From the NCBI RefSeq assembly GCF_040807025.1, contig NC_090964.1:6448001-6512000 (forward strand): a stretch of 64,000 nt of DNA. Reading direction: 5' to 3'. The notes under the pieces were generated by a model. It did no database searches. It was not told where the DNA came from and worked only from the letters and a program-made list of their open reading frames with translations. The stretch comes from Struthio camelus (lineage: Eukaryota > Chordata > Aves > Struthioniformes > Struthionidae). Below are positions 56,041 to 59,000 of the stretch, one piece after another (the stretch's first letter is position 1; the number at the start of each line of letters is the position of its first letter). Position numbers and translations under genes: made by a program.

Positions 56041-59000
56041 ATGGGCTGCGTGCACTGCAAAGAGAAGGGCTCCGGCAAGGGCCAGCCAGAGAGCAGCACC
56101 GGCGGCCCCCCCCCGGCACCCACCTCCCGGTACGACCCCGACCCCACGCAGCCCGGCGTCGCCTTCACCCACATCCCCGACTTCAACAACTTCCACGGCG
56201 CGGCGGTGCCCTCGGCGCCCGCCTTTGCCGGGCCGGGGCTCTACCCCTCCAACACGCTGCACGGGCGCAGCGGCGGCATCGCAGGTCAGCGGGTGTCCGG
56301 GCGCGCTGCCGCCGGCAGCGGGGGGGATGCACCCGTGCAGCGCTGGGCGCGTGGGGCCGGCCGGCCCCGCTCACTGCCCTGCCCTCTGCATGCCGCAGGC
56401 GGCGGCGTGACGCTCTTCGTCGCCCTGTACGACTACGAGGCCAGGACGGAGGATGACCTGACTTTCCAGAAAGGGGAGAAATTCCACATCATCAACAACA
56501 CGTGAGCACCCCCGGCCCCTCCGCCGCGGCCCCCCAACCCCGCCCCGGGCCACCCGCTGAGGTGCCCCCGGGTCTGGGTGCTGAGTGGCCTTGGCACCGT
56601 TGCTGCATGCCTGGAAGAGAACGGGAGCCACGTGTGTCATGAGTCGGGCGGTCTCAGCACGCACCGCCGTTGGCGTGGTGGACGGGGTTTCTACCGAAGG
56701 TGGGGGGAGAGCAGGCGCCCGGGGCTGCTGGGTCGCGGGGAGGGGAGGCGCAGGGTGGGCAGGTCCGTCCATCCGTCCGCCCGTCTTCCTCACCGTCCCT
56801 TCGTCTTTCCGCAGCGAGGGGGACTGGTGGGAGGCCAGGTCGCTGAGCTCGGGCGCTACGGGCTACATCCCCAGCAACTACGTAGCCCCCGTGGACTCCA
56901 TCCAGGCAGAAGAGTGAGTACAAGGAGGGGGGACGCAGAGCCCCTTTCACCCAGCCCAGCTGCCCGGCACCCAGGCGTCCGGGCACGTGCCGCCCACCCC
57001 CCCCGCCACCCCTTTACCCCATCGCCCCCGGCCCCAGGGCGACGCGGGCTGCGGGGGCCCCCTGACGCCCGCGCCCGCCGCAGGTGGTACTTCGGGAAGA
57101 TGGGGCGCAAGGACGCGGAGCGGCAGCTCCTGGGCCACGGCAACGGCTGCGGCACCTTCCTCATCCGCGAGAGCGAGACCACGAAAGGTACGGGGTGCAA
57201 GGGGGGCCGCGGGGGCTCACCGGACCCCCCCCCCCCTCCGGCCGCTGCCGCCGGCCCCCCCTGACCCGCCGCCCCGCCAGGCGCCTACTCGCTCTCCATC
57301 CGCGACTGGGACGAGGCGAAGGGGGACCACGTCAAGCACTATAAGATCCGCAAGCTGGACAACGGCGGCTACTACATCACCACGCGCGCCCAGTTCGACA
57401 GCGTGCAGCAGCTGGTGCAGCACTACGTGGGTACGGCGGGCCGGGGGGGGTTTGCAAAGCCGCAGCCCCGGCTGCGTTCACTGGGTTAAACTGGGTTTAA
57501 CTGGAGGAGGAAGAGCGTGTTCTGGCGCCGGCATCGGGGCCGGGGGGGACCCTCGGTGCAGGGAGCCGCCGTCTCTCTGGAGAAGGTATATCGGCCCCGG
57601 GGGTGGGCGAGGATCGGCCCCTTCCCCAGCGCAGCCGGCCGCAGCCCCCGGGCAGAGGTGGGAATGGCGGCGGCCGGAGCGGGGATCGGTGCAGGCAGCG
57701 GGTGCTGTGCCCCCGGCTCCTCCAGGCTGCGATGTTGTGCCCCCGCTCCCCCAAAACAAGCCGTGCCGGCCCCCCAAGGCGGGGGGGAGGTTGCACCCGT
57801 TTTTGACGTGGGTTTTGGGGGGCCCCGGCTGCACCCCGGAGGGCTTTCCCGCGGGTGACGCTGGGGTACCCGGACAGGCGGGCGGGGGGCCGCAGCTCAC
57901 CCGTGTCTCTCTCCCCCCGACCCCGGCGCCCCAGAGCGCGCGGCGGGGCTGTGCTGCCGCCTGGCCGTGCCGTGCCGCAAGGGAACGCCCAAGCTGGCCG
58001 ACCTCTCGGTCAAAACCAAGGACGTGTGGGAGATCCCCCGCGAGTCGCTCCAGCTCCTCAAGAAGCTGGGCAACGGGCAGTTCGGGGAAGTGTGGATGGG
58101 TAGGACCCGGCGGGCAGGCCGGGGCGAGCGGCGGGGCGGGCGCCGAGGGGAGCCCCCCGCCCAGGCCTGGTGCTCGCCGGAGGAGGCCGAGCGACACGAG
58201 TTTGCCGGTCTCAGCCCCACGACTAAGGGCTCTGCAAGCGGTGTTTGGTCCTTGCTCTTTGCACACGAGCATAGGGGGGCGTTTTGTCCCCTCCGCTCCT
58301 AAATTCAGTCTAAATTTGGCCCCCTCCAGCCTGCCATGGGCAAGAGACGCTGCCCTTGGATTCGCACCTGGCGTGGGGAAACATCCCATCTCCCACTCCG
58401 GGGTCGCCCTGGCATCAGCCCCCCCCTTCATGTGGCACTGGGGGGGCTGTGGCACCCCCTTAGCACCCCAAGGTGCCCCACAACCTCCCTGCGTGGGCAG
58501 GCAGCCCCACATTTCAGATGGGACCGCAAGCAGAAGACAGGACCAGGCCTGGCGGGGGGGTTCTCTTCCTCGTCTTCCTCTTCCTCCTCCGCCCCGTCCT
58601 CCCTCCGCTCCGCGTGCATGCTGCATTCACCCCATCCTGCACTGCTCCCTCCGTGCCCCCCCTTGCAGAGTATAACGATGGGTTGTGCCATCTGCTAACC
58701 CACGCGTGCCCCGCTATGAAGCCCCAGACCCTGGGATTAGCTAAGGACGCCTGGGAGATAGCGCGCGAGTCCATCAGCCTCGACACGAAACTCGGCATGG
58801 GATGTTTCGGAGACGTGTGGAAGGGTAAGGCTGGCCGGGTGGGCACGGAGCGCTCTGGCTCTCCTTGGCCAGCGGCATCGCGGGGTGCCGGGGGGAGACG
58901 GCAGCCTGGCACAGGCTCCCCTGCGGAGGGATGGGGACCAGGGTAAGGATGGTAACAGGCGATGAGCCCACGGGTGCCTAGTGCCCATGCTATGGGGTGA

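Follow-up and report, generated by a model that had tools for sequence, protein, structure and literature searches.

A tandem pair of FYN-type exons, 7A and 7B, in the bird FGR/YRK gene and its probable ancestry

Results

The FGR/YRK gene and its surroundings

The window, by which we mean the whole 64,000-nucleotide stretch of Struthio camelus DNA that was analysed, contains upstream of FGR a neighbouring FAM76 gene on the reverse strand (14000-25100), recognised by a match of Pfam PF16046 to its first exon near 24953-25096 that spans 24 profile residues (E 9e-11). By eye alone, more FAM76-like exons can be made out as far as about 14 kb. A long open frame on the forward strand (29032-31038), a fragment of which matches HSP70, is possibly an intronless HSP70 gene or a retrocopy. 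Two tandem copies of an apparent papain-family cysteine protease gene lie on the reverse strand between FAM76 and FGR (35457-47206) and apparently represent a tandem duplication; Pfam support comes from one segment of the first copy, and each copy has an extra module, which gave no Pfam match in the one copy tested.

The FGR/YRK gene itself occupies positions 56041..60973 of the forward strand and, as delineated by the exon model, Pfam and two body trees, encodes the SH4-unique, SH3, SH2 and kinase regions in 12 coding exons with AG/GT at the internal junctions. Coding exons 1-4 (56041-56284, 56399-56501, 56815-56913 and 57084-57187) precede exon 6 of the model (57281..57430, 150 nt), which encodes the end of the SH2 domain and has the donor TGG/GTACGG (the slash marks the junction). 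Exon 7A (57935..58099, 165 nt) specifies an SH2-kinase linker of the FYN-B/YRK type and the P-loop GNGQFGEVW, and is separated by an intron of 569 nt (58100..58668) from exon 7B (58669..58824, 156 nt), which specifies a linker of the FGR/SRC/FYN-T type and the P-loop GMGCFGDVW, with a cysteine at the position of Src Cys277. Exon 8 (59290..59469, 180 nt) is the downstream partner common to 7A and 7B, and the remaining coding exons are at 59675-59751, 59845-59998, 60367-60498 and 60765-60973, all on the forward strand.

The earlier note on this DNA had described two adjacent homologous exons of these lengths, sharing their phase, bearing good splice sites and lying 569 nt apart, and the coordinates bear it out. 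The acceptors read CCCAG/AG (7A) and TGCAG/AG (7B), the donors TGG/GTAGGA (7A) and AGG/GTAAGG (7B), and the introns around the two exons measure 504, 569 and 465 nt. Both exons are of phase 1-1 and every combination is open, with predicted proteins of 538 residues for 7A only, 535 for 7B only, 590 for both and 483 for neither. The argument that loss of reading frame cannot police wrong combinations, as both exons are multiples of three, is therefore sound, since all four combinations stay in frame. The 535-residue form scans as SH3, SH2 and PK_Tyr in Pfam.

The 7A and 7B peptides are genuinely homologous, with 25 identities over 52 aligned positions and a global alignment score of 101, against a shuffled mean of -27.7 (sd 10.1), the best of 2000 shuffles reaching 12. 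When the whole window was searched by tblastn, each exon recovered itself as well as its partner (7e-9 and 2e-9), nothing else did better than E 0.026, and no third copy of exon 7 was found. Adjacency, homology, phase, lengths and splice sites are all those of the FYN-type tandem 7A/7B pair.

FGR and YRK treated as one gene

YRK is usually listed as a separate bird Src kinase. The sauropsid proteins that we retrieved mostly bear the names Fgr and Yrk, and in a quick body tree without exon 7 (155 rows, taking the 152 of 254 retrieved proteins that passed a length and domain filter and dropping 102) the window and 15 other bird proteins grouped together with a support of 0.985 inside a sauropsid group (0.949). 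The same tree placed mammalian and amphibian FGR with FYN (0.929), which speaks against reading YRK and FGR as one gene. A careful tree of the regions outside exon 7, computed under a mixture model (53 rows, 403 columns; 50 hand-picked proteins with the window, HCK and LYN), united 12 sauropsid FGR/YRK and three mammalian FGR proteins at 98/98, and all FGR rows except P0044 at a weak 90/49. Two two-exon proteins that bear the name Yes (P0061 and P0086) are placed within FGR by tree.

P0044 grouped with FYN in each of the body trees. We considered it as a spliced mammalian FGR transcript and rejected it in that role, as it is FGR-like before exon 7 (87%) and FYN-like after it (94.6% and 100%); its sequence, FGR-like before and in exon 7 and FYN-like beyond, is probably that of a chimeric assembly. 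Because of the 98/98 grouping in the careful tree, the apparent chimerism of P0044 and the FAM76 neighbour, which would agree with the gene order around mammalian FGR, bird YRK and mammalian FGR are treated here as one gene.

Resemblance of the two exons to their relatives

Window 7A is 87% identical (48/55) to dog FYN 7A, in keeping with the likeness to brain FYN proposed earlier; for the likeness to chicken YRK proposed with it, the sequences retrieved are a quail model and several bird proteins named Yrk. The proposed resemblance of 7B to mammalian FGR and T-cell FYN was also recovered, at 71% identity to human FGR and 56% to dog FYN 7B, with 69% to human SRC. In a listing of relatives over the 7B stretch, complete with all 58 matches, birds stand at 83-92% identity, squamates and turtles at 74-80%, a lungfish at 74% and the echidna at 83%. 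The window 7B ends in VWK (58820-58824), with a final Lys in place of the Met that closes each of the other bird or bird-like 7B segments (25/25). Frog FGR 7B likewise ends in VWK.

Exon segments were cut by alignment to the window exons, and lengths were checked independently by counting between landmarks outside the exons. By this count the exon-7 region has 52 residues in 109 of 110 measurable single-exon 7B-type models and 107 residues (55+52) in 95 of 102 measurable two-exon models, and the 9-nt size difference that had been noted as shared with FYN proves to be general. The P-loop residue is nearly fixed, being Gln in 123/123 7A segments and Cys in 250/254 7B-type segments; of the four exceptions, three are wrongly joined models in which the 7B itself has Cys, and the fourth, a pipefish protein named Fyn, has Ser. 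The rest of exon 7 is mainly the SH2-kinase linker.

Ancestry of the exon pair

An exon tree was built from 95 rows (78 different), comprising 57 hand-picked proteins of the 254, the window and PDB rows. With 55 columns, few for the purpose, and a bootstrap that had not settled, it united the 7A exons in one clade at 100/98 (33 rows: 16 FYN, 16 FGR and one lamprey), the FGR 7B exons at 95/87 (33 rows), the FYN 7B exons at 99/96 (16 rows), and FYN 7B with FGR 7B at 97/81, inside a wider 7B group with SRC, YES and lamprey 7B (96/78, not starred). The window 7A thus belongs with FYN 7A and the window 7B with FYN 7B. AU tests pointed the same way: forcing window 7A and 7B to be sisters costs 72.7 log units (p-AU 1e-46), and forcing all FGR 7A and 7B into one clade costs 52.0 (p-AU 5.5e-4). 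On the basis of the exon tree and these tests, the exon duplication predates the split of FYN and FGR, as the earlier note had supposed. Its view that mammalian FGR is of 7B type while the bird gene has both exons likewise holds in the exon tree, with the body tree grouping at 98/98 outside exon 7.

Two other histories of the pair were weighed. Adjacent and alike as the two window exons are, 7B could have arisen as a recent bird or sauropsid duplicate of 7A, or FGR could have duplicated its exon independently of FYN; the AU tests rule out both as far as 55 columns allow, the window 7A is far closer to dog FYN 7A than to its own 7B (87% against just 48%), and FGR-type proteins with both exons are present in rays, bony fish and reptiles, which together leave such a duplication practically out of the question. 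The note had itself proposed a tree of this kind, in which 7B might have appeared as a recent bird duplicate of 7A, and the tree gave no such placement. Transfer of 7A into FGR by gene conversion or exon transfer from FYN seems extremely unlikely as well. It draws on the near invariance of 7A and on the exon tree, where FGR 7A forms no clade of its own apart from FYN 7A, but the missing clade is explained by the low resolution that comes with near identity, and most FGR 7A exons of the tree have KLADLS with KKLGNG, as against RLTDLS or RLADLS with KRLGNG in most FYN. The lamprey and one Polyodon row combine KLADLS with KRLGNG. Any such transfer would have to be ancient.

The lamprey row comes from a Fyn-like protein of Lampetra planeri (P0071) that carries both exons. 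Its 7B is, among the matches listed (best 120 of 502), mostly 75-83% identical to Yes and Src and 60-70% to FYN and FGR, and, as for its body, the quick tree set it outside FYN and FGR (0.256) and the careful one joined it to SRC and YES (93/92). This one lamprey protein suggests a pair already present in a shared SrcA-type ancestor, with loss of 7A from SRC and YES. Exon 7a is called the younger copy in the accessible part of one report (PMC5224494, citing Picard 2002). HCK and LYN carry a P-loop Gln, and because 7A shares it with them we call neither copy the younger.

Distribution of the pair

Both exons are carried by 123 of the 254 retrieved proteins and only a 7B-type exon by the other 131, figures that are not frequencies, because the second exon adds to the score and retrieval therefore favoured two-exon proteins. 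Split by a single 7A motif, the 123 comprise 54 of FGR type and 69 of FYN or lamprey type, and the FGR-type two-exon models come, among the matches listed, from birds, an alligator, squamates, teleosts, gar, bichir, sturgeon, sawfish and a skate. Two-exon relatives were listed as the best 120 of 240, a sample in which absence of 7A-only or mammalian 7A proteins is uninformative, and the retrieved proteins are cluster representatives at 90% identity, behind which isoforms can hide. The retrieved FGR entries of echidna, opossum and placentals, and the amphibian, turtle and lungfish entries, showed 7B only and no 7A, in listings that could hide 7A forms.

The statement that the sauropsid gene kept both exons thus stands, but as a sauropsid peculiarity it does not, for the FGR-type pair is found in several groups of fish and both exons in the lamprey Fyn-like protein, which makes the duplication older still. 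The search for 7B at other FGR loci that had been proposed gave models with both exons in birds, reptiles and fish; the amphibian entries retrieved showed 7B only. A separate sequence with a bird-like 7B (P0027), from a contig of 5,909 bases, contains the 7A region, out of frame, followed by 7B, which makes an artefact of this assembly unlikely.

Use of the two exons

Gene models show both single-exon and double-exon forms. Models with 7B alone, named Fgr or Yrk isoform X2, come from several birds, a turtle and several lizards, and as gene models they suggest that 7B is used. A frog-like 7B protein (P0055) is complete at 517 residues and encoded in 2,054 bases; because so short a stretch encodes the full protein, it derives from spliced RNA or a retrocopy, and it has no bearing on sauropsids.

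The models also raise the question whether 7A and 7B might normally be included together, giving the 590-residue kinase with a doubled linker and P-loop. The reading frame permits it, the 569-nt intron is long enough for splicing, and the exons abut exactly in 110 of the 123 two-exon database proteins. The same double models are, however, listed for FYN, whose exons are described in the available text of PMC9741552 as mutually exclusively spliced; for this reason the double-exon models are likely gene-prediction artefacts, and since single-exon models exist too, we regard normal double inclusion as very unlikely. It is also unlikely, in our judgement, that 7B (or 7A) is a non-functional relic, conserved by descent and rarely or never spliced, so that sauropsids would rely on one exon alone. 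The window 7B does depart from other birds at several sites, its last residue among them, and its GC3 is lower than that of 7A (0.75 against 0.94). Yet 7B is open and has good splice sites in the window, its relatives from birds to lungfish and echidna retain the identities given above, and the 7B-alone isoform X2 models recur across birds, turtle and lizards; over such times an unused exon should presumably have decayed.

The acceptor of 7B is preceded by an AG-free, pyrimidine-rich zone (58547..58668, forward strand) that contains TTCTCTTCCTCGTCTTCCTCTTCCTCC, with CUUC and UCUU repeats. Among the gene's 11 acceptors its AG exclusion zone, 120 nt, is the longest, that of 7A being 37 nt; we take this as a hint of regulation only. 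The corresponding zones of human FYN are 61 nt for 7a and 35 nt for 7b, and U2AF represses 7a and activates 7b there, according to the portion of PMC5224494 that is available. The zones thus come in the opposite order in human FYN, and any exclusivity in the window gene may be brought about in another way.

RNA structure of the intron was rejected as a cause of exclusivity. Folding of the 7A-7B intron was not significantly beyond that of shuffled sequences (z -1.66; 8/100 as low), and a long-range duplex in this intron was matched by 21/300 shuffles. Imperfect inverted repeats (58145-58200 and 58539-58591) bracket most of the intron, one arm overlapping the pyrimidine zone of 7B. A tandem repeat of the TCCATCCATGCA type lies in the intron between 7B and exon 8 (59070-59224), and Rfam gave no match at gathering level in 55000-64000.

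Discussion

Our reading, to which we assign a probability of about 0.8, is that bird FGR/YRK retains the two exons of a tandem exon-7 pair already present in the ancestor that FYN and FGR share, probably a single SrcA-type gene that preceded the vertebrate genome duplications, that SRC, YES and mammalian FGR lost 7A, and that a FYN-like alternative use of the two exons is most likely. FYN and many non-mammalian FGR genes would have kept both exons, mammalian FGR would have lost 7A, and SRC and YES would have lost it separately. In the FGR/YRK gene, exon 6 would be spliced to either 7A or 7B, and that exon in turn to exon 8, as in FYN, both forms presumably being transcribed and their use presumably exclusive and biased by tissue. 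Inclusion of 7A would give an SH2-kinase linker longer by three residues and a P-loop with Gln; with 7B, the linker would be the shorter, SRC/FGR-like one and the P-loop would carry Cys where Src has Cys277. Two such kinases would be expected to differ in autoinhibition through the SH3-linker contact, and the ATP lid might be open to oxidation in one and not in the other. As judged from these sequences, the working of the pair is likely a splice-chosen linker together with a splice-chosen P-loop cysteine.

What such a swap could do is indicated by work on SRC and FYN. Src Cys277 is sulfenylated, H2O2 fails to activate Src carrying C277A, and Yes and Fgr conserve the residue; a second cysteine, Cys185, is likewise required for the redox activation of Src and is absent from other Src kinases (all from the accessible part of PMC6207713), so that the effect may not extend to FGR. 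Kinase activity is said to vary between the FYN exon-7 isoforms (PMC5861047, available portion), and their binding of partners differs (PMC10939263, likewise).

We further consider it reasonably, though not strongly, probable that the pair already existed in a single SrcA-type gene before the vertebrate genome duplications and the lamprey split, a probability slightly raised by the place of the two-exon lamprey protein beside SRC and YES (93/92) in the careful tree. FYN and non-mammalian FGR would then be two-exon descendants, SRC, YES and mammalian FGR would each have lost 7A, the ancestral splice choice would have toggled a redox-sensitive P-loop Cys, and vertebrates would later have distributed this splice switch among separate kinase genes.

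If our main reading is true, YRK and FGR name a single gene from which two kinase forms are possible, and the FGR of mammals is a reduced form of it. The gene would offer a natural test of the FYN exon swap, which would recur in a second gene together with an almost fixed Gln/Cys exchange at the Src redox site, and splice isoforms of one gene would match separate genes elsewhere in the family. It has been stated for human FGR, SRC, YES1 and FRK, regarded as derived from FYN duplications, that each retained one of the two exons (PMC9741552, in its accessible text). This one-exon statement for the relatives of FYN, made from human genes, would become limited to mammals. No description of a two-exon FGR or YRK was found in the available text of the open-access literature, and database gene models already contain both exons.

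Compared with FYN 7A (FynB) and 7B (FynT), the window pair has the same place in the protein, the same sizes of 55 and 52 residues, orthologous exons and the same Gln/Cys contrast in the P-loop. It differs in belonging to a separate gene, in the GCFGDV of FGR 7B as against GCFAEV or GCFADV in most FYN 7B, and in having the longer AG-free zone before 7B, whereas human FYN has it before 7a. FYN splicing is known from transcripts, and that of the window FGR/YRK gene is predicted here from gene sequence and models. Exon 7 of SRC and YES shares the 7B-type linker and P-loop Cys and grouped with the 7B exons in the exon tree, but unlike in the window no 7A was seen among the SRC/YES matches listed (best 120 of 502). 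By the body tree, the window gene is the same as that of the bird proteins called Yrk or Fgr. For chicken YRK only the 7A form has reportedly been published, and a 7B form would accordingly be a second product of the YRK gene. Mammalian FGR resembles the window gene in its exon, 71% identical between human FGR and window 7B, and in grouping with sauropsid FGR outside exon 7; it differs in that human FGR is reported with one exon, of the FynT type (PMC9741552, accessible part), and the human FGR structure 7uy0 carries a FynT-type exon. The present analysis is an extension of the known FYN system to a second gene, with its history corrected outside mammals.
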